DNA of 64,000 bases, from positions 2,829,501-2,893,500 of the forward strand of contig NZ_CP092415.1 of assembly GCF_023716465.1 (NCBI RefSeq). Reading direction: 5' to 3'. Position 1 is the stretch's first letter, and each line of letters begins with the position of its first letter. The notes under the pieces are model-generated. The model worked only from the letters and a program-made list of their open reading frames with translations. It made no database searches and was not told the origin of the DNA. This stretch comes from Flagellimonas marinaquae. Its GTDB lineage: Bacteria > Bacteroidota > Bacteroidia > Flavobacteriales > Flavobacteriaceae. Made by a program: the position numbers and the translations under genes. Of this stretch, positions 16,179-50,576 are shown piece after piece.

Positions 16179-16221
16179 TGATGAATGTCATACCGTTCTC
16201 CTAAAAGGATGTTTACTTTAG
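16179..16221 (+). promoter_or_regulatory. CRP/FNR-type site 1 with -7 box (ATP-cone gene)
   Basis: Palindrome TGATGAATGTCA at 16179-16190. Its centre is 29.5 bases upstream of TACTTTAG (16214-16221), a 7/8 match to TAnnTTTG. The box ends only 4 bases before the ATG at 16226, so the transcript would be nearly leaderless if this promoter is used. Confidence 0.6.
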
Positions 16222-16225
16222 TAAT

Positions 16226-17068
16226 ATGGCAAACAATAAACTCCAAATTACTAAATCTTCCGGTGAACAGGTCAAGTTTTCCATCGATAAATTGGAAAGA
16301 TCGCTTCAGCACTCTGGTGCCAACGAAGAAATGGTACAAGAGGTCGTAAGTAGGGTAGTGGATGAATTGTATCCCGGAATTTCGACCCGGGAAATCCATA
16401 ATAGAGCATTTGCCCTTCTTAAAAAGAAAAAATCCATTTATGCATTCAAATACAAATTAAAAAAAGCCATTTACGAACTGGGCCCGACCGGATTTCCTTT
16501 TGAAAAGTTCATCAGTGGGATTCTATATTATTCAGGATACAAGACACAAGTTGGTGAAATGGTCCACGGTACCTGCGTTGCCCACGAAATAGATGTTTTG
16601 GCCATTAAAAATGGTACAATGAACGTAATCGAGTGTAAATTTCATGGAGATGATGGACTAAAATGCAATGTAAAAGTACCATTATATATCAATGCACGAT
16701 ACCAAGATGTAAAAGCACCCATGGAATCCAACAAAGAGAAGAATTACACATCCACCCTTGGTTGGGTTGTGACCAACACAAGATTTACCAAAGATGCCCT
16801 TGCTTACGGCAATTGTGTGGGATTGTATTTATTGAGCTGGGACTATCCGGATGGCGATGGACTTAAGGAAAGGATAGATAGGTTGCGGTTATACCCCATC
16901 ACCGTATCCACATTATTATCGGGTAGGGAAAAACAGTTTTTGCTGGAACGCGGCGTAGTGCTTTGCAGGCAATTGGAAAAAGATAGTTTTTACCTAGACC
17001 ACCTGGGCTTATCCAATGGCAGAAAACAGCGGATTCTTAAAGAAATGAAATCATTGTGCAATTCGTAA
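16226..17068 (+). CDS. ATP-cone domain fused to PD-(D/E)XK nuclease-like domain
   Basis: A protein of 280 residues. Residues 5-90 form an ATP-cone domain (nucleotide-sensing fold of ribonucleotide reductases and NrdR): ITKSSGEQVKFSIDKLERSL and the YAFKYKLKKAI ending. Residues 91-205 look like a restriction-endonuclease fold, with Asp123 in HEIDV and Glu136-x-Lys138 in IECKFH. The C-terminus (about 240-280) resembles helix-hairpin-helix repeats. No methylase or specificity subunit is nearby, so a restriction system is unlikely. The stop is 6 bases before the beta-CASP gene. Inference: an ATP/dATP-gated nuclease or nucleic-acid binder working with the RNase-like neighbour in stress. Its function is not established. 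Confidence 0.8.
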   Translation: MANNKLQITKSSGEQVKFSIDKLERSLQHSGANEEMVQEVVSRVVDELYPGISTREIHNRAFALLKKKKSIYAFKYKLKKAIYELGPTGFPFEKFISGILYYSGYKTQVGEMVHGTCVAHEIDVLAIKNGTMNVIECKFHGDDGLKCNVKVPLYINARYQDVKAPMESNKEKNYTSTLGWVVTNTRFTKDALAYGNCVGLYLLSWDYPDGDGLKERIDRLRLYPITVSTLLSGREKQFLLERGVVLCRQLEKDSFYLDHLGLSNGRKQRILKEMKSLCNS

Positions 17069-17074
17069 GGCGTT

Positions 17075-18445
17075 ATGAATAAACTGGAAATACACTTTTT
17101 GGGCGGGTCTGGGACTGTTACGGGATCTAAGTTTTATTTGCACACCGAAGAAATAAAAATTTTGGTGGATTGTGGATTGTTCCAAGGTATTAAGGCGCTA
17201 CGGGAAAAAAATTGGGAACGCTTGCCCATAGATGTTTCCCAGATCGACTATGTTTTGCTCACCCACGGACACCTGGATCATTGTGGGTATTTGCCTCTTT
17301 TGGTAAAACAAGGTTTTCGAGGAAAAATTTTAGGGACCGGACCAAGTTTGGACATTGCAAGGATCATTCTGGAAGACAGTGCCAAAATACAAGAGGAAGA
17401 GGCAGAAAGAGCAAATAAAGAGGCATACAGCAAACACCATCCGGCGCTGCCATTGTACACTGCCGAAGATGTGGCTTTCGCTTTGAAGTTCTTTGAGCAA
17501 GTCGACGAAGGCGGGCAAGTTTCATTGTCCGAGCATTGCGATGCCCGATTCCTGTACAATGGACATATTATTGGTTCAACCTATATAGAAATTGATCTAT
17601 TCGGTAAACGCCTGGTTTTTTCCGGGGATGTGGGAAGGCAGCAAGATGAATTACTGGATCCACCAAAACAACCCGAATGGGCCGATTATCTATTTGTGGA
17701 AAGCACTTATGGAGATAGGCTACATCCCATAGAGGATGTTGGGCAGAAGCTGGTAGAGCTGGTCAATGATACCTTGTACAAAAAAGGGACCTTGATTATA
17801 CCTTCTTTTGCGGTGGAACGATTACAATCGCTCATGTACCAATTGTGGAAACTCTACAAAAAGAACAAGATTCCCAATATCCCCATTTTTGTGGATAGTC
17901 CTATGGGCAACAATGTTCTGGAAGTATTTGAACATTACCCTGACTGGCATAAACTTACACCCGTGGAGTACCGGAATATGTGTAACCATATCAATATTGT
18001 GAGTTCTTATGCCGAAACCTGGGAAACCATTGACGACCCCAGGGCAAAAATTGTAATTGCCGGTAGCGGTATGGTAACGGGAGGAAGGGTTCTTACCTAC
18101 ATTAAACAATTGGGCGATATGATATCCACTTCGATATTACTTGTTGGGTACCAGGCGGAAGAAACTCGTGGAAGAAAACTTCTCGAAGGAGCGACAGAAC
18201 TCAAGATCTATGGCAAAACAATACCCATAAATGCACAGGTACACCACTTGGAAAGCTTATCCGCACATGCGGACCAAGGTGAGTTGGTGAACTGGATGGG
18301 CTCCATTAAAAACGTTCCGGAAAAAGTGTTCCTGGTACATGGCGAAAAGTCCGCAATGGAAGCCTACAAGGATAAAATTCGGGAAAGTTTTGGTTGGGAT
18401 TGCCATATCCCGAACATCCACGAAGTTGTTGAAATTATACTATAA
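17075..18445 (+). CDS. Beta-CASP metallo-beta-lactamase-fold RNase (Ysh1/CPSF-like)
   Basis: A protein of 456 residues. The metallo-beta-lactamase motif THGHLDH (His64, His66, Asp68, His69) is followed by SGDVG, the beta-CASP signature IPSFAVERLQ, the SGMVTGGR segment, LSAHADQGEL and the final VHGE motif. The order and length fit bacterial homologues of the CPSF-73/Ysh1 mRNA 3'-end nuclease rather than RNase J (which is longer and has an extra C-terminal domain). Expected activity is zinc-dependent RNA cleavage. It shares an operon with the ATP-cone nuclease-like gene under regulatory site 1. The 3' end converges with upp. Confidence 0.88.
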   Translation: MNKLEIHFLGGSGTVTGSKFYLHTEEIKILVDCGLFQGIKALREKNWERLPIDVSQIDYVLLTHGHLDHCGYLPLLVKQGFRGKILGTGPSLDIARIILEDSAKIQEEEAERANKEAYSKHHPALPLYTAEDVAFALKFFEQVDEGGQVSLSEHCDARFLYNGHIIGSTYIEIDLFGKRLVFSGDVGRQQDELLDPPKQPEWADYLFVESTYGDRLHPIEDVGQKLVELVNDTLYKKGTLIIPSFAVERLQSLMYQLWKLYKKNKIPNIPIFVDSPMGNNVLEVFEHYPDWHKLTPVEYRNMCNHINIVSSYAETWETIDDPRAKIVIAGSGMVTGGRVLTYIKQLGDMISTSILLVGYQAEETRGRKLLEGATELKIYGKTIPINAQVHHLESLSAHADQGELVNWMGSIKNVPEKVFLVHGEKSAMEAYKDKIRESFGWDCHIPNIHEVVEIIL

Positions 18446-18456
18446 ACCCTAAAAGA

Positions 18457-19110
18457 TTACAGTTTAGGGCCATAACTTAAATCACCAGCATCACCAAGAC
18501 CTGGAATAATATAGCCTTTGCTCGTTAAGTGTTCGTCCACAGTAGCTATCCAAAGTTGAGTGTCGCTTGGAAAGACCTTTTCCACTTTGGCAATCCCAGA
18601 TTTGGAACCAATTACCGATAGGATATGAATCTGTTTTGGTGTTCCATGACTCTTTAGGGCATTGAGCACATTCTCCAAAGTTTTTCCTGTTGCCAGCATG
18701 GGGTCGGTGAGCACCAAAACCTTACCATCCAAAGATGGTGCGGCAAAATATTTTACGATCACTTCAAAATCATCATCATCGTTGGGGTGGTGTCTGTACG
18801 CCGAAATAAAGGCATTCTCGGCCCGGTCAAAATAATTTAACATGCCCTGATGTAGGGGCAATCCGGCCCTTAGGACCGAACAAAGCACTAGGTCGTCCTT
18901 ACATCCAAAGGTTTTTTTGGTGCCCAAAGGCGTTTGTATTTCTCTCGCTTCATAATCCAAGGACCGACTCAATTCATAAGCTAGAACTTCGCCTATTCGT
19001 TCAATGTTTCTTCGAAAACGCATGGAATCCTTTTGGATCTCCACATCCCTAATTTCGGAAATAAATGTATTGAGTACCGAATTGGTCTGGTCAAATTGAT
19101 GTATGATCAT
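18457..19110 (-). CDS. upp: Uracil phosphoribosyltransferase
   Basis: A protein of 217 residues that salvages uracil with PRPP to make UMP. The PRPP-binding loop VLVLTDPMLATGKT and the uracil-binding GLGDAGD near the C-terminus are visible. The ATG at 19110 gives the family's usual length. The frame stays open to 19284, but those 58 residues have no family match. It is convergent with the beta-CASP gene and divergent from dnaJ. It lies inside the stress island, although the shared regulatory site 2 appears aimed at dnaJ. Confidence 0.96.
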   Translation of the reverse strand: MIIHQFDQTNSVLNTFISEIRDVEIQKDSMRFRRNIERIGEVLAYELSRSLDYEAREIQTPLGTKKTFGCKDDLVLCSVLRAGLPLHQGMLNYFDRAENAFISAYRHHPNDDDDFEVIVKYFAAPSLDGKVLVLTDPMLATGKTLENVLNALKSHGTPKQIHILSVIGSKSGIAKVEKVFPSDTQLWIATVDEHLTSKGYIIPGLGDAGDLSYGPKL

Positions 19111-19201
19111 TTGAATAGAAATTGTTTCTTTTTTAAAGGTATGGGATGTTCCTAAAATATAAAAATGAAAAACCATAGGTCCACTATGCGAACCAATTGA
19201 C

Positions 19202-19245
19202 TGATATAGGTCATTGGAAAGAAGTAAGTTTTTTATAAAAATTTG
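19202..19245 (+). promoter_or_regulatory. CRP/FNR-type site 2 with -7 box (dnaJ-cbpM)
   Basis: Palindrome TGATATAGGTCA at 19202-19213. Its centre is 30.5 bases upstream of AAAATTTG (19238-19245), a 7/8 match to TAnnTTTG, 58 bases before the dnaJ ATG. No comparable box is seen at that distance in the upp direction. Confidence 0.55.
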
Positions 19246-19303
19246 AAAGAATCTTTTATTCAAATGATTTTTAGGTTGTACCACTAAGATTTTGTGACCA
19301 TTT

Positions 19304-20215
19304 ATGGAGTTTATCGATTATTATAAGGTTTTGGGGGTTGATAAAAAGGCGTCGCCCGAACAAATAAAAAAGGCATATCGCAAATTAGCGAGGAAATATC
19401 ATCCAGATCTTAACCCGAATGATGCCGAAGCGGAGAAAAACTTTAAACGGGTCAACGAGGCCCATGAGGTACTCTCGGATACCGAAAAAAGGAAAAAGTA
19501 CGACGAATATGGCAAGGACTGGCAGCACGCCGAAGCGTTTGAAAAAAACAAGCGATCCCGCACCCAATATGCTGGACAAAATGATTTTGAAGGGTATACC
19601 TATCGTCGCACTGGAGGGTCGAACCAAGATTTTTCCGATTTTTTCGAGTCCATGTTCGGTGGAGCATCAAGTTTTGGTTCCAAAGGCCAAAAGGTCCATT
19701 TTCGTGGTCAAGATTACAATGCCCAGCTCCAATTGTCGTTGATGGATGTGTACACGACACAAAAACAGACCCTTACCGTTAACGGAAAAAGTATCCGATT
19801 GACCATCCCTGCCGGTATCGAGGACGGACAGACCATTAAAATAAAAGGACATGGAGGTCCGGGAATCGATGGAGGCCCTGCCGGGGACCTTTACATTACA
19901 TTTTTCATTGTAAACCATACCGCTTTTAAACGAGATGGAGCAAACCTGTACAAGACGGTTCAAATTCCTTTGGTGAAAGCGGTACTTGGAGGCGATATTC
20001 AGGTCGAAACTTTAACGGGTAGGGTTAAATTAAAACTGGCACCGGGGACCGATAGTGGCACCAAAGTTAAACTCAAAGGGAAAGGATTTCCTAAATATAA
20101 GAAAGAAGGAGAATTTGGGGACCTCTATTTAACCTATACCGTTAAAATTCCAAAGCACCTTACACAAGAACAGAAAAGCCTCTTCGAATCCTTGGCAAAG
20201 ACCAATCTAGCATAG
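19304..20215 (+). CDS. cbpA: DnaJ-family co-chaperone, CbpA-like
   Basis: A protein of 303 residues. It has a J domain (1-70) with HPD at residues 33-35, a Gly/Phe-containing linker (about 85-125: [18 protein letters not shown]), and the DnaJ C-terminal substrate-binding domains (from about 130) with no Cys-rich zinc module. That layout is CbpA (type II J protein) rather than DnaJ. It would stimulate DnaK ATPase and hold unfolded proteins. The cbpM-like gene starts 7 bases later, the same pairing as the E. coli cbpAM operon. Confidence 0.92.
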
Positions 20216-20222
20216 CACAGTC

Positions 20223-20513
20223 ATGAAAAAAGAAAACTTTATATCCATCAAAACATTTTGTGAAAACCATGGGGTAGGCGAATCTTTTATCTATTCCATG
20301 TACGAATACGAAATTTTGCAGGTCCAACAGGAAAAAGAAGCGGGAATGCTCCACCTGGACGATCTTCCCCTTTTGGAAAAAATGGTGCGTCTGCATCATG
20401 ACCTCGATATAAACCCGGAAGGGATACAAGCCGTACACCATCTTTTGGGGCAGGTGGAAAGTTTACAGCAAGAGGTCGCCTCACTTAAAAAGAAACTGGA
20501 CAGATTGGAGTAA
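20223..20513 (+). CDS. cbpM: CbpM-like chaperone modulator
   Basis: A protein of 96 residues of the MerR-like HTH/CbpM type: ISIKTFCENHGVGESFIYSM at the N-terminus, then a C-terminal coiled coil (about 74-96: VESLQQEVASLKKKLDRLE). In E. coli, CbpM binds the J domain of CbpA and inhibits it. The gene directly follows cbpA, supporting the same role. No DNA-binding role is implied. Confidence 0.85.
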   Translation: MKKENFISIKTFCENHGVGESFIYSMYEYEILQVQQEKEAGMLHLDDLPLLEKMVRLHHDLDINPEGIQAVHHLLGQVESLQQEVASLKKKLDRLE

Positions 20514-20534
20514 AATCCGATCGAGGTTTGGATA

Positions 20535-20577
20535 TGACCTAGATCATTGGAATTAAAATACACGAAACCTAATTTTA
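20535..20577 (+). promoter_or_regulatory. CRP/FNR-type site 3 with -7 box (first usp gene)
   Basis: Palindrome TGACCTAGATCA at 20535-20546 inside the longer inverted repeat ATGACCTAGATCAT. Its centre is 29.5 bases upstream of TAATTTTA (20570-20577), a 7/8 match to TAnnTTTG. It predicts a leader of roughly 85 bases. Confidence 0.65.
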
Positions 20578-20607
20578 GTCGAAATAAAAAAATGGAAATG
20601 GTACAGG

Positions 20608-20629
20608 GTATTGCCGAACAAGGCAGTAC
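20608..20629 (+). other. Hairpin in the usp leader
   Basis: GTATTGCC pairs with GGCAGTAC (8 pairs, one wobble) around the loop GAACAA, inside the predicted 5' leader of the first usp gene. No T-run follows. Its role is unknown; it may be an mRNA stability element. Confidence 0.4.
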
Positions 20630-20672
20630 TTGATTTGGTAGCCAATGTCATTTTTCGCAAACCATGGATATT

Positions 20673-21494
20673 ATGAAAAAAATACTGGTTCCCGTTGATT
20701 TTTCCGAACACTCGGAATATGCTTTGCATGTAGCCGCCATTATTGCCAAACAGCATAATGCAGGCATTGTTTTGCTTCATATGATCGGAATGTCCGATTC
20801 GGTTCTGGCCAATTCCGAGATCGCAGAGGAGGCAGAAGCCAAATACTATCTTAACTTGGCGAAGGATAAAATCAAACAATATACAGAAAAAGAATACCTC
20901 AAAGGAATATCGCTAGAGGCCATTATCCAAAACTACAAAGACTTTGAGGAGGTAAATAATGTGGCCGAAGAGAAAAATTGTGATTTGGTGGTGATGGGGT
21001 CTCACGGTACCAGCGGGATAAGCGAGCTTTTTGTTGGGTCCAATACGGAAAAAGTGGTACGTACATCCAATGTTCCGGTAATAGTGATCAAAAAACCACA
21101 CCAAGATTTTACCATAAAGAAAATGGTCATGGCCACTGATTTTGCCAATAAAAGTGTATCTGCTTATATTAAGGCCGATACCTTTGCCAAATTGTTCAAT
21201 GCTAGTTTAGAAGTGGTCTATGTGAATACCACAGGGGCCAACTTCATTGGATACGACATTGTGGATAAAAGACTGGAAGCCTTTAAAAAAGAGCTGGGCA
21301 AGGACGTCAACATTAATTTCTACAGTAGCCCAAGTGTAGAACGCGGAATTCTTAAGTATTGTCAGGAAAAGAATGCCGATCTATTGGTAATTCCAACACA
21401 TGGTAGAAAAGGTCTGGCACATTTTGTTGTGGGCAGTTTGGCCGAAAATGTTTCCAACCATGCGCAAATGCCTGTTATGACGATAAAAATGTGA
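20673..21494 (+). CDS. Universal stress protein, two tandem Usp domains
   Basis: A protein of 273 residues from ATG 20673 (an ATG three codons earlier is possible). Both Usp domains keep the ATP-binding G-x2-G-x9-G-S pattern: GSHGTSGISELFVGS in the first and THGRKGLAHFVVGS in the second. It begins with the typical KKILVPVDFSEHSEYAL. Usp proteins bind ATP or other ligands and support survival during energy, oxygen or stress limitation. Of the five usp genes here it is the only one with two intact motifs. It ends directly against the convergent TerB-like gene. Confidence 0.93.
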   Translation: MKKILVPVDFSEHSEYALHVAAIIAKQHNAGIVLLHMIGMSDSVLANSEIAEEAEAKYYLNLAKDKIKQYTEKEYLKGISLEAIIQNYKDFEEVNNVAEEKNCDLVVMGSHGTSGISELFVGSNTEKVVRTSNVPVIVIKKPHQDFTIKKMVMATDFANKSVSAYIKADTFAKLFNASLEVVYVNTTGANFIGYDIVDKRLEAFKKELGKDVNINFYSSPSVERGILKYCQEKNADLLVIPTHGRKGLAHFVVGSLAENVSNHAQMPVMTIKM

Positions 21495-21899
21495 TCAACG
21501 GTCAAAAAGCAGCTGTAAACGCCCCAATAAGATCAATTCCGATTTGTTGCTGCCATAAAACGAAGCTGTGATCGCTCTCGAAGTGGACATGGCCAAATTT
21601 TTGATCTTTGGGGTAAATAACAGTTCGTGCTCCGTATAAAAAGCTTCGAATTCTTCATAAATTTCCTCGGGGTCTTTTTCATATTCCAGTAGCCCATCAA
21701 AAACGGTGATTATCTGCAGTGCGGCGTCGGCACCAAATTCGTCCTCAATATCATCTACTTCCAACCATTGCTCACGGACCACCTCGTTAAATTTCTCCAT
21801 TTCGTTCATATGCACACTGTGATCGGCCATGGCCATGGCATAGAATAGTTTCCCCAAATTCTGATATAGTTCGTTGCCCATTTTCGTCCTGTGTGTCAT
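21495..21899 (-). CDS. TerB-like small helical protein
   Basis: A protein of 134 residues, mostly acidic and helical. The segment YAMAMADHSVHMNEMEKF (about residues 20-37) matches the tellurite-resistance TerB motif, in which acidic residues bind metal. Another Met at 21881 could be the start. No other ter genes are nearby, so tellurite resistance itself is not implied. It is the only minus-strand gene in this part of the island apart from upp, and regulatory site 4 has a well-placed -7 box pointing towards it. Confidence 0.6.
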   Translation of the reverse strand: MTHRTKMGNELYQNLGKLFYAMAMADHSVHMNEMEKFNEVVREQWLEVDDIEDEFGADAALQIITVFDGLLEYEKDPEEIYEEFEAFYTEHELLFTPKIKNLAMSTSRAITASFYGSNKSELILLGRLQLLFDR

Positions 21900-21927
21900 G
21901 ATCTTTTGTGTTTAAGTGCTCAATCAA

Positions 21928-21970
21928 TAAATATACTTATCAGTAAAGTTTTTCTACATGATGTAAATCA
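21928..21970 (-). promoter_or_regulatory. CRP/FNR-type site 4 with -7 box (TerB-like gene)
   Basis: Palindrome TGATGTAAATCA at 21959-21970. On the minus strand its centre is 29.5 bases upstream of TATATTTA (21935 down to 21928), a 7/8 match to TAnnTTTG, with the TerB-like ATG about 29 bases beyond the box. The same palindrome ends 18 bases before the histidine kinase ATG on the plus strand, so it may also affect that gene, perhaps as autoregulation. Confidence 0.6.
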
Positions 21971-21988
21971 GTAAATTTATTTGCTGTT

Positions 21989-23518
21989 ATGGAAGGATTT
22001 AAAGAAATAGATGTACTGGATATTTTATCGGAAATCATTTCTGAGGGAATCCTGATTGTGAATGACCAACATAGTATTACGGCTAGCAACCATGCGGCAA
22101 ATGTAATGTTCGGCTATGGTGAAGGAGAGCTCATCGGCGAACCATTGGATGTTTTGATACCCAAAAGCTCCAGAGCCGACCATGGCAAACTTGTTTCTGG
22201 TTTTATGCAACATGGAAAGGCCCGGCAGATGGGTAAAGGGTTGGATTTGGTCGGTCGATGTAAAAATGGGGATGAGTTTCCACTGGAAATAAGCCTCAAT
22301 CCTTTTAAATTGAACAGTAAAAGGTATGTATTGGCCTTGATCATGGATATCACCGAAAAAAAGAAGGCCAAAGAAACCATAGATTATTGGTTTAAAATTT
22401 TTGATGAATCCCTAAATGAAATCTATGTTTTTGATCCAGAAACATTGGTTTTTATCAATGTAAACCTCGGGGCTCAAAAAAACTTGGGCTTCAGCATGCA
22501 AGAGTTGGCACAAATGTCGGTGTTGGATATTAAACCGAGCCTTTCGGAAGCGGTAATGAGACGTTTGGTTTCCCCATTGTTGTCCAAACGCAAACAAAAA
22601 GTTGTGTTTGAAACAGAACATAAGCGCAAAGATGGATCCACCTATCCTGTTGAGGTACATTTACAGATTTCCTTTATAGGGAAACGAAAAGTATTTGTGG
22701 CCATTGTTTTGGATATTACGGAAAGGAAAAATTATACCCAGCAACTGGAGAAGACCGTCGAGGAAAGAACACAACAATTGCAAGAGGCCCTAAAGGCCGA
22801 AAAGAAGCTCAATGAACTTAAAACAAAGTTTCTCTCATTGGTGTCGCACGAGTTTAAGACGCCGTTGACCAGCATTCTCACCTCAACATCGTTATTGGCC
22901 AAATACACCGAATCCGAACAGCAAAACAAAAGGGACAAACATATTGCCACTATTAAATCAAAAGTAAAGTACTTGGATGGTATCCTAACGGACTTTTTGT
23001 CCATAGAACGGTTGGAGCTGGGCAAGGTAAAATATGAGTTAACCACATTCCCCTTGAGCAAGGTGATCAATGAGGTGATCTACGATGCCAATATGCTGCT
23101 AAAAGAAGGACAACGAATAAAATACCCGAACAATATCGATGGTATTGTATTGGATTTTGATGAGAAAATGCTTGTTCTGGCCTTATCCAATTTGGTCCAT
23201 AATGCGATAAAATATTCTCCCGAGGAAACGGATATAGAGCTTAGGGTAACCATGGAGCAAGAACAATTGAATATTGAGGTGGTCGACGAAGGCTTTGGAA
23301 TACCACCAGAAGACCGACCCTTTATTTTTGATAGGTACTACCGGGCCTCCAATGTACTTACAGTTCAAGGAACCGGAATCGGGTTGAATATTGTGAGGCA
23401 ACATATGCATAACCTCGATGCCAATGTTACTTTTAAAAGTAACAGGGAAAAAGGATCCACATTTACACTGCACATACCAATTAAAAACAAGGAAAATGAA
23501 AAAAATCTTACTGGTTGA
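21989..23518 (+). CDS. PAS-PAS sensor histidine kinase, FixL-like first PAS
   Basis: A soluble protein of 509 residues with no membrane segment. PAS 1 (about 8-125) resembles the FixL haem-PAS: His65 in SSRADHGKLV aligns with the FixL proximal haem ligand, and the MGKGLDLVGRCKNGDEFPLE stretch (81-100) follows. This pattern is also common in PAS domains without haem. PAS 2 spans about 130-248, followed by a coiled coil, HisKA with SHEFKTPL (His287), and HATPase_c with Asn405, DEGFGIP and GTGIGL. It overlaps the response regulator gene by 23 bases, so they are a translationally coupled pair. Probable role: cytoplasmic sensing of oxygen, redox or energy state. Confidence 0.92.
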   Translation: MEGFKEIDVLDILSEIISEGILIVNDQHSITASNHAANVMFGYGEGELIGEPLDVLIPKSSRADHGKLVSGFMQHGKARQMGKGLDLVGRCKNGDEFPLEISLNPFKLNSKRYVLALIMDITEKKKAKETIDYWFKIFDESLNEIYVFDPETLVFINVNLGAQKNLGFSMQELAQMSVLDIKPSLSEAVMRRLVSPLLSKRKQKVVFETEHKRKDGSTYPVEVHLQISFIGKRKVFVAIVLDITERKNYTQQLEKTVEERTQQLQEALKAEKKLNELKTKFLSLVSHEFKTPLTSILTSTSLLAKYTESEQQNKRDKHIATIKSKVKYLDGILTDFLSIERLELGKVKYELTTFPLSKVINEVIYDANMLLKEGQRIKYPNNIDGIVLDFDEKMLVLALSNLVHNAIKYSPEETDIELRVTMEQEQLNIEVVDEGFGIPPEDRPFIFDRYYRASNVLTVQGTGIGLNIVRQHMHNLDANVTFKSNREKGSTFTLHIPIKNKENEKNLTG

Positions 23519-24545
23519 GGATGACACCTCGCTACGGGAGAATGTAGCGGAACTGTTGGAATTGTCCGGTTATACCGTATGTTCGGCATCAAATGGAAAA
23601 ATAGCCGTTCCAATGGCCATAAAGGAATGTCCCGATCTGGTTCTTTGTGATATCATGATGCCGGAAATGGATGGGTACGAGGTATTGGAGGAATTATCTA
23701 CAAAGGAATCCACAAGGTATATCCCGTTTATATTTATATCGGCAAAAACGGAAAGGCAAGATGTAAGAAGGGGTATGAACCTTGGTGCAGATGACTATTT
23801 GACCAAGCCGTTCGAAGAGGAGGAGCTATTGGGAGCCATAACCTGCCGACTGGAAAAAGCTGAACAAATGCAAGCTGTACTATCCAATGAATCCATTAAT
23901 AAAAATGGGGAGGGTGAAATACGATCTCTGAACGAGCTCAAAAACTTTTTTGACGACCATGGTCAGTTGCTTTCTTACGCCAAGGACGACATTATCTACA
24001 ATAGAGGAGATCATTCCAATATGGTTTACCTTATTTTAAAAGGGATCATAAAAAGCTGCGCCTTGGACGAAGAGGGCAAGGAGTTGATCACCGCTATATA
24101 TTCGGAAGACGATTTTTTGGGATTTACATCCCTTACGGACCATTTGCCCTATCAGGAATATGCCATTGCCATTGAAGATGTTGAGTTAGCAGGAATCTCC
24201 AAGGAAAAGGTCAAGGCAATTTTGGAAGATAATAAAAGCGTTTCCTTGGAACTGATGGATGTAATCACCGATAATTTGTCCGACATTAAAAAACAATTGC
24301 TGCAAATGGCCTATAGTTCGGTAAGAAAGAAAACCGCACAGACCTTATTGCGTTTTTCCCGGGCAATAAACAAGAACAAACGTGGACCATTAAAAATTGC
24401 TCGCAGCGATTTGGCCGGAGTGGCAGGCATTGCCACCGAGAGCCTGATCAGAACCCTTTCCGATTTTAAGCATGAAGGACTAATTGCCATAGAAAATAGA
24501 AATATTCTTGTGTTGGAACCAGAGGCATTGGAGCAGGTCCACTAA
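23496..24545 (+). CDS. Response regulator fused to Crp/Fnr-type cNBD and HTH
   Basis: A protein of 349 residues from ATG 23496, which gives the REC start MKKILLVEDD; the frame extends upstream inside the kinase gene. REC domain: acidic pair Asp9/Asp10, phospho-acceptor Asp52 (LCDIMMPEMDG), Lys104 (LTKPF). A cyclic-nucleotide-binding-like barrel covers about 150-265. The HTH_Crp is at about 275-345, with the recognition helix TESLIRTL (Glu315 and Arg319, the E-x3-R pair that contacts TGA half-sites in CRP and FNR). There is no Fnr-type N-terminal Cys cluster, so sensing is presumably through the kinase. It is the candidate activator for the eight TGA-N6-TCA sites around it. Confidence 0.93.
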   Translation: MKKILLVEDDTSLRENVAELLELSGYTVCSASNGKIAVPMAIKECPDLVLCDIMMPEMDGYEVLEELSTKESTRYIPFIFISAKTERQDVRRGMNLGADDYLTKPFEEEELLGAITCRLEKAEQMQAVLSNESINKNGEGEIRSLNELKNFFDDHGQLLSYAKDDIIYNRGDHSNMVYLILKGIIKSCALDEEGKELITAIYSEDDFLGFTSLTDHLPYQEYAIAIEDVELAGISKEKVKAILEDNKSVSLELMDVITDNLSDIKKQLLQMAYSSVRKKTAQTLLRFSRAINKNKRGPLKIARSDLAGVAGIATESLIRTLSDFKHEGLIAIENRNILVLEPEALEQVH

Positions 24546-24570
24546 AAAATCACGTCATAAATAGCGCAAG

Positions 24571-24612
24571 TGATATTTATCATTCCGTTTGTTTTAATCA
24601 ATAGCAATCTTG
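24571..24612 (+). promoter_or_regulatory. CRP/FNR-type site 5 with weak -7 box (second usp gene)
   Basis: Palindrome TGATATTTATCA at 24571-24582, symmetric to TGAT-N4-ATCA. Its centre is 28.5 bases upstream of CAATCTTG (24605-24612), a 6/8 match to TAnnTTTG, which lies 19 bases before the ATG. Confidence 0.6.
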
Positions 24613-24631
24613 CACCATCAATTTATGACAA

Positions 24632-25468
24632 ATGAAGAATATTCTGGTCCCCACGGATTTTTCGGAAAATTCCATTCAGGCGCTAAAGTATGCCCAAGTG
24701 CTGCTCAGCGGAATGGAATGCAATTTCTACGTGTTATATGTTGGCACCCTACTGGATACCAAAGCTGATGCAGAATCGCTCCAAGAAAAAACGGACGAGA
24801 CCAGAAAAAATACTAAAAGGCGACTGAATGATCTGGTACGGGCGGAACGTAAAAAAAGTACTAAGGCCAATCACTTTTTTTTCGCTTTGCACGAGTACGG
24901 TTTTTTTATTCCGATCATAAAAAAACATCTGGAAGAACAAGATATCCATCTTATTGTAATGGGTACCAAAGGTGTTTCCGGTTTTCGGGAAAAAGTGGTG
25001 GGGAGCAATGCCGGCGATGTTATTACCAAAGTGCAGTGCAATACTCTCGTGGTTCCGCAACATGTTGATTTGTCCAAACCCCGAGAAATAGCTTTCCCTA
25101 CGGACTTTAATATATTTTATTCCTTAAAGATCTTGCGCCCCATGGTGGAAATGGTGCAGTGCAGCAATGCGAAGCTAAGGATCATGAATGCCTTGAAATA
25201 TGGTGATACCCTAAGTGAAGAGCAACAGAAAAATAAGGAATATCTTATGGACTTTATGGAAGAGACCTTTCCGAAGGTGCACAGTTTTCATACCATTACC
25301 AATCAAAAGGTAAAGTCGGCCATACAATGCTTTGCGGAGAGCAGGGAGGTCGATATGATGATCATGGTGGCCAAAAACCTAAATTTTATACAACAGATTC
25401 TGTTCGATTCCATAGTGGAGCAAATAAGTTTTCATACCAAAATTCCATTTTACGTAATTCACGAGTAG
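24632..25468 (+). CDS. Universal stress protein, tandem Usp, degenerate second domain
   Basis: A protein of 278 residues. The first domain begins MKNILVPTDFSENSIQAL and has the ATP motif GTKGVSGFREKVVGS. In the second domain the equivalent segment (MIMVAKNLNFIQQILFDS) has lost the glycines, so only one nucleotide site is expected. It is a single-gene transcript under site 5, with about 150 bases to the next usp gene. Confidence 0.92.
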   Translation: MKNILVPTDFSENSIQALKYAQVLLSGMECNFYVLYVGTLLDTKADAESLQEKTDETRKNTKRRLNDLVRAERKKSTKANHFFFALHEYGFFIPIIKKHLEEQDIHLIVMGTKGVSGFREKVVGSNAGDVITKVQCNTLVVPQHVDLSKPREIAFPTDFNIFYSLKILRPMVEMVQCSNAKLRIMNALKYGDTLSEEQQKNKEYLMDFMEETFPKVHSFHTITNQKVKSAIQCFAESREVDMMIMVAKNLNFIQQILFDSIVEQISFHTKIPFYVIHE

Positions 25469-25542
25469 TGTTTTAATTAAATCGTTCGGTTGGTTTTTGT
25501 GTGTGATACCTAAACCGATAATCCTCAAGTTTTTGTGATAGG

Positions 25543-25585
25543 TGATGGAAATCATAGTATATAATAAACTAGCTAAATAGCTTTG
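25543..25585 (+). promoter_or_regulatory. CRP/FNR-type site 6 with perfect -7 box (third usp gene)
   Basis: Palindrome TGATGGAAATCA at 25543-25554. Its centre is 29.5 bases upstream of TAGCTTTG (25578-25585), an exact match to TAnnTTTG, 30 bases before the ATG. It is the best example of the shared promoter layout. Confidence 0.75.
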
Positions 25586-25615
25586 TTACGATAAGGGATT
25601 TTTAATAATTGAGCT

Positions 25616-26458
25616 ATGTTCAGAGTTGTATTGCCCACCGATTTTTCAGATAATGCATTCCATGCCATTTCCTATGCAGTAAAACTGTTGGAAAAGTCCA
25701 CTTGTATTTTTTATCTGGTACATGCATATACCCCACCAGTGTACAGGGCCGATTATACTTTGGGCAGCCCGGGCCAATTGGGATTGCCTGATACAGAAAA
25801 GTACAAAGCCGAAGAAGCTTTGGAAAAAACAAGGCAAAAAATCAAGGCACAGTTCAATATACCGACCCACACGTATGTAACCCACGCTGCTTTTAATTCG
25901 TTGGCAGATGAAATCGCATCCATAACCAATAAGGAGAACATCGATTTTGTGGTAATGGGCACACAAGGGGCAACAGGAGCGAAGGAAATTTTATTTGGCT
26001 CCAATACGGTGCATGTAATTCAGAGAACTAGTGTTCCAATTCTTGCCATACCCTCGTTTTTTGAGTTTAAACCCCCACACAATATATTGTTTCCAACCGA
26101 TTTTGAAGTAGATTACGATAAGGCCAATATTGATTTTTTACTCAAGCTTTCCAAACTATGGCATGCTAAACTGCATGTTTTACATGTATCATCGCCAAGC
26201 GGATTGGATGCCGATCAAGAAAAGAACAAAACCTATTTGCAGGGCATGTTGTTAGAAGAGAATACTGTTTTCTACGATTTACCGGACCAAGAACTGATAG
26301 AAGGCATCAATGGGTTTCAGAACAAGGCCCAAGTCGAACTGTTGGCCATGGTGAAAAACAAACACTCATTTATTGAACGCCTTTTTATAGAACCGATCAT
26401 TAAAAATATAGGGTTACATGCCAGAGTTCCTTTTTTGGTTCTCCCCTATAACCAATAA
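25616..26458 (+). CDS. Universal stress protein, tandem Usp, degenerate second domain
   Basis: A protein of 280 residues. First domain: VVLPTDFSDNAFHAI start and ATP motif GTQGATGAKEILFGS. Second domain: the motif is replaced by MVKNKHSFIERLFIEP. It is only 7 bases from the following usp gene, so the two are one transcript from site 6. Confidence 0.92.
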   Translation: MFRVVLPTDFSDNAFHAISYAVKLLEKSTCIFYLVHAYTPPVYRADYTLGSPGQLGLPDTEKYKAEEALEKTRQKIKAQFNIPTHTYVTHAAFNSLADEIASITNKENIDFVVMGTQGATGAKEILFGSNTVHVIQRTSVPILAIPSFFEFKPPHNILFPTDFEVDYDKANIDFLLKLSKLWHAKLHVLHVSSPSGLDADQEKNKTYLQGMLLEENTVFYDLPDQELIEGINGFQNKAQVELLAMVKNKHSFIERLFIEPIIKNIGLHARVPFLVLPYNQ

Positions 26459-26465
26459 TTAAATT

Positions 26466-27281
26466 ATGTTACAGATTTTAGTACCCACCGATTTTTCAAA
26501 CAATTCTTACAATGCGCTGTTCTATGCCGCTAAATTGTTCAAGAACAAGAAAAGTACATTTCATATTGTAAATGTGTGCAGTACCAAGAACGATCCAAAA
26601 AAGGAAGAGGCCCAATTGGAATCGGCCCAAGGATTGGATGCATTGGTACATCGGCTGATCAGGGATGTAGGAGAGAATTCGAACCATGACTATAAAAAAA
26701 TATCGCTATGTTCGGATTTATCCGAGGGGATTGCTGATTATGCCAAAACAAACAAAGTGGACCTTACCGTAATTGGAAACAAGGCACAAGAAGAAGTCAA
26801 ACATATTCTGTTCGGGAACAATGCCATGCAGTTAGTTCGAGAAATAACCCATTGCCCTGTATTGATCGTGCCCTTGGAAATCGATTTTAAAAAGGTGGAT
26901 AAACTGGCTTTTACATCCAATTATACCTATCCTATTGCAGAAGAAAATAGTAAGGCCATCATTTTTTTTAGTGAATTGATGGATAGTGTTGTTGTGCCAA
27001 TGCGCATTCAAGAAAATAAAGGGAACGATACTGCCGAAAAGAACAGAACCCAATTTTTAAATGCGATTGCCCATAAAAGTGGAAAAGAGGTCGAGTTGCC
27101 CATTTTCGATGGCAAGGTGAACACGATTTTGGAATTTGTAGATCTCTGGAAAATAGATATGCTCTGCATGGTGTACTACCCGCACCACTTCTTTTTGGAG
27201 TTTATAGGCAATGGCATTATAAAGGAACTGAATACCAAATTAAAAGTCCCTTTTTTAATTTTGCCCAACCGCCAAAGTTGA
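26466..27281 (+). CDS. Universal stress protein, tandem Usp, both ATP motifs eroded
   Basis: A protein of 271 residues. The N-terminal LQILVPTDFSNNSYNAL is typical, but the first-domain loop reads GNKAQEEVKHILFGN (glycines partly lost) and the second has none (MVYYPHHFFLEFIGN). It may bind another ligand or act only as a dimer partner. Its stop codon is part of regulatory site 7 for the next gene. Confidence 0.88.
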   Translation: MLQILVPTDFSNNSYNALFYAAKLFKNKKSTFHIVNVCSTKNDPKKEEAQLESAQGLDALVHRLIRDVGENSNHDYKKISLCSDLSEGIADYAKTNKVDLTVIGNKAQEEVKHILFGNNAMQLVREITHCPVLIVPLEIDFKKVDKLAFTSNYTYPIAEENSKAIIFFSELMDSVVVPMRIQENKGNDTAEKNRTQFLNAIAHKSGKEVELPIFDGKVNTILEFVDLWKIDMLCMVYYPHHFFLEFIGNGIIKELNTKLKVPFLILPNRQS

Positions 27282-27321
27282 CGAAAATCATGGCATAACC
27301 TATTGAATCATACTAAATTTC
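27279..27321 (+). promoter_or_regulatory. CRP/FNR-type site 7 with -7 box (fifth usp gene)
   Basis: Palindrome TGACGAAAATCA at 27279-27290, overlapping the stop codon of the previous gene. Its centre is 29.5 bases upstream of TAAATTTC (27314-27321), a 7/8 match to TAnnTTTG. A start site near 27328 would favour the ATG at 27340. Confidence 0.6.
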
Positions 27322-27339
27322 AGGAAAATGAGATTACGT

Positions 27340-28191
27340 ATGGACAAAAGGATTTTGTTGCCTACCGATTATTCCAAAAATGCATTGAACGCCATTAGGT
27401 ACGCCTTGGAGTTGTATAGAAATGTACACTGCGACTTTTATATTCTCAATGCGTTCCATATATCCAGCTACACCTTGGATAGCATGAGGGTCCCGGAAAC
27501 AGGCGAACCGTACTACGAAGCTGCAAAACAAGAAGCGGAAGCAGGTATGGAGCGACTAATGCAAATGGTCAGACTCCATCCACAGAACCATAAGCACGAA
27601 TTTCATACCATAACGACCTTTAACAGTGTTACCGAGGCGATCAGAAATGTTGTCGATAAAAAAGATATCGACATGATCATCATGGGAACCAAAGGTATCA
27701 CCGAATCCAAGGCTCGGATATTCGGCACCAATACTGTAAATGTAATGGAACGGATCAGGGAGTGCCCCGTAATTGCAGTGCCCAATAATTATATGTTCGA
27801 AGAACCAAAGGAAATTGTTTTTCCTACCGATTATAAATCCCCTTTTAAGAAAAAAGAAATGGCAGATGTAATCGAGTTGTCACAATTGTTCAATGCTACC
27901 ATCCATGTATTGCACATTGATAAGAACAAAGACGGTAAACTGGACAGGAAAGAGCAAGGCAATAAGGAATTGCTCCAAGAAATTCTGGAAGGGGTAGCGT
28001 ACCGGATGCACTTTGAGCCTGCAGCTAAGATCAGTGATGGGATCAACGCATTTGTCGATAGGCACAAATGTGATATGATTGCCTTTTTGAACAGAAAGCA
28101 CTTATTTTTTGGAAGCATACTTACCAATCCTTTGGTGAAAAAAATAGGGTACGACCCCAAAGTGCCCATATTGGAACTTAACGATAACTAA
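27340..28191 (+). CDS. Universal stress protein, tandem Usp, degenerate second domain
   Basis: A protein of 283 residues from ATG 27340 (MDKRILLPTDYSKNAL). An in-frame ATG at 27328 lies at or before the predicted transcript start and adds only MRLR. The first domain has GTKGITESKARIFGT; the second (FLNRKHLFFGSILTN) lacks the motif. The next gene follows after 12 bases and is probably co-transcribed. Confidence 0.9.
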   Translation: MDKRILLPTDYSKNALNAIRYALELYRNVHCDFYILNAFHISSYTLDSMRVPETGEPYYEAAKQEAEAGMERLMQMVRLHPQNHKHEFHTITTFNSVTEAIRNVVDKKDIDMIIMGTKGITESKARIFGTNTVNVMERIRECPVIAVPNNYMFEEPKEIVFPTDYKSPFKKKEMADVIELSQLFNATIHVLHIDKNKDGKLDRKEQGNKELLQEILEGVAYRMHFEPAAKISDGINAFVDRHKCDMIAFLNRKHLFFGSILTNPLVKKIGYDPKVPILELNDN

Positions 28192-28203
28192 AAAATTGTA
28201 ACT

Positions 28204-28632
28204 ATGAAACAGATAGGAATTTGGTTGGATAAACAAGAAGCCAACGGCGTAATATTGGAAAACGGGAAGGAAAGTCTTTTTACCATTCCATCGGAACTCG
28301 ATTTTTTTAACCCAAGAGGCGGTTCCCGATCCAAGACCAAATGGGGTCCGCAAGATGTGGTTCAGGACAGTAAATACCTTGAAAAGGAAAAGCATCAACT
28401 AAGAAACTATTTTGAGAAGATTGCGGAAAAAATTTCCGATGCGGACGAGATAGCCATATTTGGTCCTGCCGAAACACCGGAAAAATTGGTTGGGGCTTTG
28501 CAGACGAAACATCCTGGCTTGGCCAACAAAATAAAGATGACCAAAACTACGGACAGTATGTCCCAAAACCAGTTTAAAGCGTTGGTAAAACAATCTTTTG
28601 GTCTGGACGACCGATATCCTACGGGTAAATAA
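28204..28632 (+). CDS. Conserved small protein, possibly release-factor-like (eRF1-type) fold
   Basis: A protein of 142 residues with no firm identification. It begins KQIGIWLDKQEANGVIL (beta-rich), has a charged middle, and ends with a segment ADEIAIFGPAETPEKLVGAL followed by TDSMSQNQFKALVKQSFG. That last part recalls the C-terminal domain of bacterial proteins related to archaeal/eukaryotic release factors, which are linked to ribosome rescue; this resemblance is from memory and weak. It is in the usp operon under site 7, so a role in translation shutdown under stress would fit, but it is not shown. Confidence 0.5.
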   Translation: MKQIGIWLDKQEANGVILENGKESLFTIPSELDFFNPRGGSRSKTKWGPQDVVQDSKYLEKEKHQLRNYFEKIAEKISDADEIAIFGPAETPEKLVGALQTKHPGLANKIKMTKTTDSMSQNQFKALVKQSFGLDDRYPTGK

Positions 28633-28644
28633 AAGTGAGCAAAA

Positions 28645-28687
28645 TGATTTAGATCATTTTAAAACTAAGGGCTAAACCCTATTTTCA
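28645..28687 (+). promoter_or_regulatory. CRP/FNR-type site 8 with weak -7 box (helical-protein/LDH operon)
   Basis: Palindrome TGATTTAGATCA at 28645-28656 within the longer repeat ATGATTTAGATCAT, nearly identical to site 3. Its centre is 29.5 bases upstream of TATTTTCA (28680-28687), a 6/8 match to TAnnTTTG, 29 bases before the ATG. Confidence 0.6.
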
Positions 28688-28716: not shown

Positions 28717-29115
28717 ATGGCATGGCAGAGGAAAATAGAGATGATGCGAGACGATCTTCAAAACTGGAAATCTTACATTCAGTTTATCGGGGACGAGATG
28801 GTGTTTATCCAAAAATTACTTGACTCTTACATTTTTGAACCAAGAACGCCCAACCTGTTTGAACGGTTGGAGAACTTTAAACAGCTTTTCAACGCTTCAA
28901 AGCAGAAAAGGGCATCGCTACTGGAATCCATCAAAATACATGGGAATAGACTTGGCGGTATTTTTGAATGTACCCAAGAAGAAAGCGATAGTCAATACTA
29001 CGAAAATCATCTGGACCTGAAAGCAAATGTCACGGGCTATATCAAATCCTATCTTGACCAAAAAAAGGAAGTTTACGAATATGCCGGATCTATACTAAAG
29101 AAAAAGAAGCCCTAG
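28717..29115 (+). CDS. Small helical protein, paralogue A
   Basis: A protein of 132 residues not recognised by family. It is highly charged and predicted mostly helical, with no signal peptide or membrane segment, and has a Lys-rich C-terminus (ILKKKKP). It aligns over its length with the next gene product: W-x-S at the start, an acidic dE-x2-F patch, H-x-N-x-L in the middle, H-x-D-L, and YI near the end. It is first in a likely operon with that paralogue and the dehydrogenase gene under site 8. Confidence 0.6.
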   Translation: MAWQRKIEMMRDDLQNWKSYIQFIGDEMVFIQKLLDSYIFEPRTPNLFERLENFKQLFNASKQKRASLLESIKIHGNRLGGIFECTQEESDSQYYENHLDLKANVTGYIKSYLDQKKEVYEYAGSILKKKKP

Positions 29116-49714: not shown

Positions 49715-49720
49715 TAAACA

Positions 49721-50033
49721 GCAGGCCACCTTATCGCTGCAAGTACGGGCAACCAAGCTTGGAGAGGAAAGTCCGGACGCCAAAGTGCGGCATAGCGGGT
49801 AACGCCCGTCCGTTGTAAGACGAGGACCAGTGCAACAGAAAGCAAGTACAGTTCGGCTGTAGTGAAATCGGCAAACTCTATGCGGTGAAACGCCATGTAA
49901 ACCAACACTTGAGGGCTGCACGCTCGAGTTGGAGGGTAGGCGGTTGGAACACTTGGGCAACCATTTGTCTAGATAAATGATAAGGAGCTCCCTACATTGA
50001 TTTGGGGTCTACAGAATCCGGCTTATGGCCTGC
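49721..50033 (+). ncRNA. rnpB: RNase P RNA, bacterial type A
   Basis: About 313 bases. The ends pair (GCAGGCC at 49721, GGCCTGC at 50027-50033). The universal GAGGAAAGTCCGGAC core is present near the 5' end, followed by the CAACAGAAAG conserved segment, the GGGTAAGC-like joining regions in shortened form, and AGAATCCGGCTTAT near the 3' end. It is the catalytic RNA that removes 5' leaders from pre-tRNA. A T-run after the last stem serves as terminator and overlaps the stop codon of the convergent rsmD gene. Confidence 0.96.
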
Positions 50034-50038
50034 TTTTT
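50034..50038 (+). terminator. T-run terminating rnpB
   Basis: Five T residues follow directly after the closing P1 stem of rnpB. They overlap the rsmD stop codon on the other strand. Confidence 0.7.
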
Positions 50039-50576
50039 ATTGAGCTTCAAAAAAACTGAAAATACTTCCGCCATATTTTCTCTGCTCCGTGAATTTGGGG
50101 TGCTCGGAAAGAGTCGTTTGTTCGGAATGCTCAATAATAAGGAGACCGTCTTCGAGCAAGAGTCCTTTGTCAAAAACCAGGTCGGCGATTTTTAAAAACT
50201 GCCCCTTATCAAAATCATACGGTGGGTCGGCAAAAATAAGGTTGAACTTTTCTGGAGTGGCCTGTAAAAATTTATATACATCGGATTTTAAGGTAGCGAT
50301 GGGAAAATCCAATTCTTGTGTTGTTCGGGCAATATAACGGACGCACCCTTGATGTCCGTCCACGGCAGTTATCTTTTTGCATCCCCTGGAGGCAAACTCA
50401 TAACTTATGTTGCCTGTACCGGAGAACAGATCGAGCACATTGAGCTCATCAAAATAAAACCTATTGTTCAAAATGTTGAACAGTGCTTCTTTGGCCATGT
50501 CGGTAGTTGGGCGAACAGGTAATTTTTTCGGCGCAGTGAGGCGCTTCCCTTTGTATTTACCGGATATGATCCTCAT
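50037..50576 (-). CDS. rsmD: 16S rRNA (guanine-966-N2) methyltransferase
   Basis: A protein of 179 residues. It begins MRIISGKYKGKRL and has the SAM motif VLDLFSGTGNISYEFASRG and the catalytic DPPYDF. It methylates G966 of 16S rRNA. Its start is directly next to the stop of the DUF3822 gene (no gap), indicating one transcript. Confidence 0.94.
   Translation of the reverse strand: MRIISGKYKGKRLTAPKKLPVRPTTDMAKEALFNILNNRFYFDELNVLDLFSGTGNISYEFASRGCKKITAVDGHQGCVRYIARTTQELDFPIATLKSDVYKFLQATPEKFNLIFADPPYDFDKGQFLKIADLVFDKGLLLEDGLLIIEHSEQTTLSEHPKFTEQRKYGGSIFSFFEAQ

Follow-up and report, generated by a model that had tools for sequence, protein, structure and literature searches.

The 64,000 nucleotides of the Flagellimonas marinaquae genome analysed here (the window; C1:2829501-2893500 of the 3.78-Mb genome) contain a stress island in which eight TGA-N6-TCA palindromes, each followed at a nearly fixed distance by a -7 box, appear to be genuine switch sites belonging to a genome-wide programme for low oxygen. 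The reading that we consider probable is that these palindromes are class II operators of a genome-wide low-oxygen regulon, in which two activators, an FNR-type protein and the response regulator REC-Crp, the latter fed by a heme kinase, converge on one promoter code. REC-Crp (23496..24545, plus strand; receiver, cNMP_binding and HTH_Crp_2 domains according to Pfam) and a PAS-PAS histidine kinase (21989..23518, plus strand; Pfam) are both encoded in the island, and the start of the REC-Crp gene overlaps the end of the kinase gene.

All eight palindromes reported in an initial annotation of the window were recovered, and all of them also fit the stricter pattern TGAY-N4-RTCA. The reported distances to the box were confirmed as well, with 35 nucleotides (nt) from site start to box in six cases, 36 nt at 19202 and 34 nt at 24571; the boxes match four to six of the six fixed bases of TAnnTTTG. 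Seven of the pairs are read on the plus strand. These are TGATGAATGTCA with box TACTTTAG (16179..16221, 35 nt) before the ATP-cone/metallo-beta-lactamase pair, the weakest member of the set; TGATATAGGTCA with box AAAATTTG (19202..19245, 36 nt) before the CbpA-like DnaJ gene 19304 and the MerR-type gene 20223; TGACCTAGATCA with box TAATTTTA (20535..20577, 35 nt) before the universal stress protein (usp) gene 20664; TGATATTTATCA with the weak box CAATCTTG (24571..24612, 34 nt) before usp gene 24632; TGATGGAAATCA with the perfect box TAGCTTTG (25543..25585, 35 nt) before usp genes 25616 and 26466; TGACGAAAATCA with box TAAATTTC (27279..27321, 35 nt) before usp gene 27328; and TGATTTAGATCA with box TATTTTCA (28645..28687, 35 nt) before a gene for a 132-aa protein at 28717. 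The remaining pair, TGATTTACATCA (site 21959) with box TATATTTA (21928..21970, 35 nt), is read on the minus strand and faces a TerB-like gene (21899-21495).

Together the sites fall within or reach into about 1.0 kb of intergenic DNA of the island; seven are wholly intergenic, and 27279 begins with its first three bases on the TGA stop codon of usp4. That they are chance palindromes in AT-rich intergenic DNA has next to no probability. It is true that TGA and TCA are common triplets: the window holds 24 TGA-N6-TCA and 11 TGAY-N4-RTCA, three of the latter inside open reading frames (ORFs; 38474, 53146, 63628) beside the eight reported, and a ninth TGA-N6-TCA of the island (23929), which does not fit TGAY-N4-RTCA, is situated within the REC-Crp coding sequence. 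However, an order-1 Markov model of 1,000 intergenic bases with the same dinucleotide make-up (2000 rounds) gave 0.31 TGA-N6-TCA (at most 4), 0.09 combinations of site and box (at most 2) and 0.08 TGAY-N4-RTCA (at most 2), as compared to the eight observed. Chance is further contradicted by a spacing peak in 80 loci and by the near absence of such sites from 21 genomes without both regulators, as described below. It is excluded for the set, but site 16179 by itself may be of this kind.

The spacing was determined on both strands of 80 loci (1.6 Mb) with a REC-Crp homologue, for spacings of 12-69 nt (58 tested) and boxes matching at least five of the six bases. TGAY-N4-RTCA occurs 621 times in these loci, and in 432 cases a box starts exactly 35 nt from the site start; every other spacing has at most 46 boxes, about 15 on average, and four control palindromes gave no peak at 35 nt in the same loci. 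Altogether 466 promoters, five of them in the window, were selected by site and box; their consensus is [AC]TGAY-n-W-W-n-RTCAT, followed by TAnnTTTR. The outer TGA, the TCA and the box of this consensus were selection criteria, but the T directly 3' of the palindrome was not, and it is present in 95% of the promoters. The genes downstream, assigned by blastp, comprise 213 usp genes, 68 TerB-like genes, 32 other island genes and 134 genes that have no match to genes of the window; for 19 promoters no gene was found.

On a mapped flavobacterial genome the TAnnTTTG box is found at -12 to -5 (PMC9723704). Together with the step of 29.5 bp from the palindrome centre this would place the centre at -41.5, the class II position that the initial annotation had proposed and for which the 35-nt spacing, by far the top of the 58 tested, also speaks. 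Its assignment of the sites to an activator of the FNR/FixK type is supported too, in that the palindromes resemble class II operators of such an activator. A CRP-family dimer located 29.5 bp upstream of the presumed -7 box of the Bacteroidota housekeeping promoter (TAnnTTTG, -12 to -5) would recruit RNA polymerase to it. In E. coli, the same step leads from a class II site to the -10 element.

Conservation was evaluated in close relatives, i.e. 30 loci with a REC-Crp at least 71% identical, where a correctly placed site with a box of at least four of six bases was counted. Such a promoter is present in 30/30 places at the TerB-like gene, 25/26 at usp1 (20664), 25/32 at usp3 (25616), 21/22 at usp5 (27328) and 20/21 at the 132-aa gene, the last value dropping to 1/21 if the box has to match at least five bases. 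The site before CbpA (19202) is kept in 23 of 24 copies, window included, with the box at 36 nt in 20 of the 24; that before usp2 (24571) is kept in 31/31 copies, window included, the best box being at 34 nt in 25, and in the other 50 loci 49 of 51 usp2 places have a site with the spacing of 35 nt. All but one of the eight sites are therefore conserved. The exception is 16179, where 18 of the 24 close-relative copies, window included, show no TGAY-N4-RTCA; since the palindrome is not conserved, we no longer count it as a solid member of the set. A -7-like box before the ATP-cone gene (16179-16221) persists in close relatives, mostly without palindrome, and three of the 18 copies lacking the site (L001, L002, L012) have TGAG- or TGAGA-type variants at this place.

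Site 21959 was found at its reported position, but its direction had to be corrected. It ends 18 bp ahead of the kinase ATG at 21989, but its box is on the minus strand, and the site therefore faces the TerB-like gene and not the kinase gene. A function as the kinase's own activator site was rejected on this basis, and also because the kinase gene has a correctly placed site in just 3 of 30 close-relative places and in 0 of 23 others. The site may nonetheless act in repression at the kinase promoter.

A sequence profile constructed from 70 promoters, none of them from this genome, scored 20535, 21959, 25543, 27279 and 28645 well within the window; 19202 had a weak score (E 0.016, calculated for the window), 16179 and 24571 were absent among its 11 window matches at E≤10, and its sole other window match under E 0.1 was the reverse side of site 28645. 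To the initial annotation the eight sites looked like a complete local regulon, with no such site in the intergenic regions scanned outside the island. The second part of this statement holds for intergenic DNA of the window only, and the first was not borne out. At E≤0.05 the profile matches this genome in 18 places, at E≤10 in 46, and 13 of the 18 confident matches are outside the window and five inside; the regulon is therefore not local. Seven form a second hub (C1:2083558-2108453) around fnr and cbb3-oxidase genes and precede the usp gene beside fnr, ccoI, ccoS (followed by ccoNO), hemN, a TonB gene, another usp gene and the gene for HPF. Of the last six, one has no gene start within 300 bp; the others precede a DoxX gene, two usp genes in a pair, a 131-aa gene, a biotin-carrier gene and a cytochrome c gene that is itself upstream of nosZ. 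All but one of the 18 confident matches are not inside a called ORF, although two overlap the called start of the gene they precede, and these starts are probably over-extended; the remaining match falls into a TTG-start ORF that overlaps the promoter of the opposite-strand 131-aa gene. Matches at E 0.05-0.5 precede genes for OmpW, a CBS protein, flavodoxin and a second TerB-like protein.

Family searches confirmed hemN, ccoN/ccoO, FixS (ccoS), Usp, S30AE (HPF), TonB, cytochrome c, CBS and flavodoxin. NosZ was identified from a fragment cut at the edge of a stretch, the OmpW candidate scores under its equivalog cut-off, and the putative ccoI product scores as a heavy-metal P-type ATPase and was named from gene position. 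Genes of the cbb3 oxidase, hemN and usp are core targets of FNR/Anr regulons, and predicted sites precede genes of these kinds here. The ccoI promoter has a peculiarity, in that the palindrome at L115:4362 in this genome and those of four loci with FNR as the only regulator (L270, L277, L284, L285) stand 35 nt from a box without its first T (CAAATTTG, AACCTTTG, AATATTTG, GATATTTG); this is perhaps a conserved weak promoter. L115:4362 is a single palindrome between fnr and ccoI with boxes at 35 nt on both strands, perfect toward fnr, so that a shared divergent operator and fnr autoactivation are possible.

Which protein reads these sites? The genome yields three HTH_Crp_2 matches above the cut-off and one below. 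REC-Crp and an FNR-like protein, whose gene (C1:2083621) is located amid the strongest sites of the genome, both belong to the CRP/FNR superfamily, with PF00027 and PF13545 above the cut-off. The recognition helices of the two regulators correspond (TATESAIR in FNR, IATESLIR in REC-Crp), and the E, I and R of this helix are invariant in 110/110 REC-Crp and 31/31 FNR sequences. In FNR proper the helix residues contact TTGAT, with Ser at the position of the Ile found here; this replacement fits the loss of the outer T in the operator. FNR orthologues have four invariant cysteines (Cys5, Cys8, Cys54 and Cys107; 31/31), and three of these, Cys5, Cys8 and Cys107, correspond in the alignment to cluster-ligand positions of FNR, which has four. 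The REC-Crp receiver has the features of a response regulator, the phosphoacceptor residue Asp52 and an acidic pocket of Glu8/Asp9/Asp10, in 110/110 sequences (104 distinct), and Cys51, adjoining Asp52, is its only invariant cysteine.

We compared 149 Flavobacteriaceae genera, one genome each, by the number of matches at E≤0.05 among 40 scored candidates per genome; presence was called at a best E≤1e-70 for REC-Crp and ≤1e-45 for FNR (at 1e-55 one genome moves). Genera with both regulators (n=43) have 21.5 matches on average, those with REC-Crp only (n=31) 15.2 (range 5-33), those with FNR only (n=54) 9.2 (all at least one, 41 at least five) and those with neither (n=21) 0.9 (15 have zero and one exception has 10). 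In chosen stretches of six REC-Crp-only genomes, sites precede usp genes in G050, G069, G076, G096 and G098, ccoI and ccoS in G098, hemN in G086 and G096 and the cytochrome c gene beside nosZ in G086. In 20 stretches from 14 FNR-only genomes, chosen around matches, 49 promoters belong to ccoI (10), ccoS (9), usp (8), hemN (4), fnr (3), others (9) and unnamed genes (6).

REC-Crp had been suggested as the activator; it is encoded in the island and is of the right family, but it is unlikely to be the sole regulator because genomes with FNR alone carry these sites too, and before similar kinds of genes. A purely local REC-Crp regulon, to which the location of the regulator gene in the island and the conservation of seven of eight sites beside REC-Crp would point, is very improbable, given that most confident sites (13 of 18) fall outside the window and that FNR-only genomes show the same code. 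The opposite view, in which the sites are operators of FNR only and REC-Crp acts elsewhere and merely happens to be located in the island, could invoke the position of an FNR-type protein with conserved cysteines amid the strongest sites and the presence of at least one site in 54/54 genera with FNR but no REC-Crp. We hold it for unlikely too, as all 31 genera with REC-Crp but without FNR have 5-33 sites, which in the stretches inspected include cco, hemN and cytochrome c/nosZ promoters, and as the recognition helices of both regulators match. Use of the same sites by both activators is the better explanation: two different regulator proteins can, as the comparison of many genomes suggests, read them, and the operators seem to stay while the set of regulators changes.

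The first PAS domain of the kinase (PAS1) indicates what the signal might be. Among PDB sequences it matches 14 at E≤0.001, of which eleven are named DosP or FixL and the other three 'heme PAS sensor', YddU and multi-sensor kinase; the 'heme PAS sensor' and YddU entries we take to be E. coli DosP. The ten matches at E≤1e-10 are all named DosP or FixL. His65 of the kinase aligns, gap-free nearby, with the proximal heme histidine of DosP/FixL in the five alignments shown. It is present in 81/81 kinases adjoining REC-Crp, window included, although its neighbours are very variable, and it is one of 12 invariant positions in PAS1. The similarity of PAS1 to DosP/FixL and the aligned, invariant His65 therefore make a heme oxygen sensor likely.

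A signal other than oxygen, such as nitric oxide, nitrogen oxides, the redox state or general stress, received by unchanged operators and regulators and a PAS domain without heme, is rather unlikely but deserves more weight than the alternatives above. Besides respiration the targets also include usp, CbpA-like, HPF and TerB-like genes, the FNR here has an unusual cysteine set, and some CRP-family relatives sense nitric oxide. On the other hand, PAS1 is closest to DosP/FixL with an invariant histidine, and cco and hemN are standard micro-oxic targets. Moreover, oxygen limitation induces the cbb3 oxidase in a flavobacterium, F. psychrophilum, in which heme-synthesis enzymes rise together with the oxidase (PMC9723704).

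We thus propose for the low-oxygen regulon that two activators with matching recognition helices would use the same operator. The first would be the FNR-type protein with its four invariant cysteines, presumably an Fe-S oxygen sensor, and the second REC-Crp, for which phosphorylation of Asp52 by the neighbouring kinase is the presumed switch. Both would bind and activate the promoters of genes for the cbb3 oxidase, HemN, ribosome hibernation, universal stress proteins and the cytochrome c encoded beside nosZ. In this scheme the route FixL to FixJ to FixK would be shortened to kinase to REC-Crp, with FixJ and FixK fused. The computations show the sites with their spacing, conservation and spread over the genome, the association with the gene of either regulator, the common helix residues and the conserved histidine and cysteines, whereas binding, activation, phosphorylation, the presence of heme and an Fe-S cluster and oxygen as the signal are inferred. 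If true, sequence alone would allow the oxygen response of a large family of environmental bacteria, including the cbb3 oxidase and perhaps N2O reductase, to be predicted by means of a two-gene signal and a 43-bp promoter rule, and the case would represent a natural experiment in regulator replacement with unchanged operators.

Several points weigh against this proposal. FNR proper has three N-terminal cysteines and one internal cysteine as ligands of the Fe-S cluster, and the FNR described here lacks the third N-terminal one and has the invariant Cys54 (31/31) instead; its score against NCBIfam Fnr (PRK11161), still its best family, is 113.3 bits at a cut-off of 228. A histidine at that place of a PAS domain is not proof of heme, and the position of FixL Arg220, the distal residue of this type of heme pocket, is Leu in the window kinase (41 Arg, 31 Leu and 5 Val among the 81). 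The genera share ancestry and are thus not independent, so that p-values of their comparison overstate independence. The training loci of the profile surrounded REC-Crp genes, which may favour genomes with REC-Crp. Of the 54 FNR-only genomes, 13 stay below five matches. In genome G121 (L237, L238), for which the profile gives 10 matches, neither REC-Crp nor FNR was found; PF13545 has nine matches there, and none of three helices inspected has ATESxIR. Some REC-Crp-only genomes carry a Crp paralogue (E 1e-36 to 1e-42 to FNR) with the helix EEQVIR, which might also read the sites. Finally, outside the family the single-site profile does not follow the presence of the regulators: it had no match in 8 of 14 REC-Crp genomes of other Bacteroidia orders, nor in seven genomes of family f22 with FNR-like proteins.

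Two related observations concern the paralogues. A 252-aa Crp paralogue of G108 (L231) and G093 (L232) has an N-terminal cysteine cluster and the helix TTEEQVIR and adjoins genes that we judge to be nitrate-transport-like. Several genomes have a second REC-Crp paralogue, and the copy of G050 (L221) has its own kinase.

The other orders were sampled in a phylum-wide draw of 148 genomes. Of 20 Bacteroidia genomes that belong to other orders, 14 have REC-Crp; in 10 of 15 stretches its gene is close to cco, hemN, usp or nosZ, and the 35-nt spacing recurs (13 cases compared to 1.24 on average per spacing). In these orders a second palindrome is found exactly 22 bp off in 29 pairs, five of them inside ORFs, with at most 4 pairs at each of the remaining offsets from 16 to 33; Flavobacteriaceae have no peak at 22 bp (13 pairs, and 4-32 at other offsets). 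The doubled palindromes (L241-L255, e.g. L244:2157 and L254:10679) precede ccoS, usp and a cytochrome c gene beside nosZ, among others. A doubled operator is one likely reason for the poor performance of the single-site profile in other orders.

A profile of 21 double operators, for which 11 of the 14 REC-Crp genomes supplied training loci, found 3-44 matches (E≤0.1) in 14/14 REC-Crp genomes of other orders, the three that did not contribute giving 3, 8 and 10. Genomes with FNR-like proteins only gave 3, 5 and 14 (two are of one genus), and three genomes with neither regulator 0, 0 and 1. A simple rule is contradicted by two genomes of the same order with FNR-like proteins that give 0, and by one of another class that gives 1; five further genomes of other classes have 0-1 and four Flavobacteriaceae 2-4 matches. 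Doubling would let two dimers bind one helix face. It is about evenly balanced whether Bacteroidia as a whole use one micro-oxic promoter code that is read by two exchangeable activators, FNR with an Fe-S cluster and REC-Crp phosphorylated by a heme kinase, and doubled outside Flavobacteriales at 22 bp (about -41.5 and -63.5). Genera would then keep either or both activators without moving operators, and the doubled operator would accommodate two adjacent activator dimers, so that one regulon would have promoters of two different architectures. The doubled operator is new to us and deserves its own study.

The proposed circuit resembles FixL-FixJ-FixK2 of Bradyrhizobium, where a heme-PAS kinase, a receiver and a CRP/FNR-type output control micro-oxic and denitrification targets; the corresponding parts are predicted here. 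In contrast to Bradyrhizobium, where FixJ and FixK are separate proteins of a transcriptional cascade, receiver and Crp helix-turn-helix are parts of one ORF. With the proteobacterial Anr/FNR regulons the present one shares cbb3-oxidase and usp targets, but it differs in the half-site, a TGAY flanked on the outside by [AC] or T where those regulons have TTGAT, in the Bacteroidota -7 box and in a second, receiver-type activator on the same sites. FNR-type sites before hemN are a further common feature, as hemN is among the Anr-box genes (PMC6588701). In Rhizobium leguminosarum the hFixL-FxkR-FixK and FnrN routes both drive fixNOQP, which encodes the cbb3 oxidase (PMC7888657), so that a route from a FixL-type kinase and an FNR route lead to this oxidase as in our proposal; however, the kinase there acts through FxkR on FixK induction, whereas here the receiver is fused to a CRP-type activator, usp genes dominate one hub and related genera can lack either activator. 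NmpRSTU of Myxococcus xanthus is likewise a kinase pathway, heme-dependent there and predicted to be so here, proposed to switch on an oxygen-utilisation regulon, but its output is an NtrC-like regulator and not a CRP-type activator (PMC11841059). A text search of PMC12531629 gave no mention of Bacteroidota/Flavobacteriaceae or of receivers/response regulators. No description of a Flavobacteriaceae FNR or REC-Crp regulon was among the full-text matches listed, which is weak evidence of novelty as most subscription journals were outside the scope.

Besides those of the kinase and REC-Crp, the island has genes for an ATP-cone protein, for a metallo-beta-lactamase of the beta-CASP type, a UPRTase, a DnaJ and its MerR-type partner and five universal stress proteins (plus strand, genes at 20664, 24632, 25616, 26466 and 27328 within 20664..28191; PF00582 above the cut-off in 5/5). 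The product of 21495-21899 has no Pfam or NCBIfam match and was named TerB-like on our own reading; the 132-aa gene at 28717 has no Pfam match. The nearest homologue of REC-Crp (91% identical) is from a metagenome-assembled genome named Algicola sp., followed by homologues of 81-85% identity in records of Allomuricauda, Muricauda and Flagellimonas. RNase P RNA class A (RF00010) at 49718-50040 is the sole Rfam match at the gathering threshold in the window.

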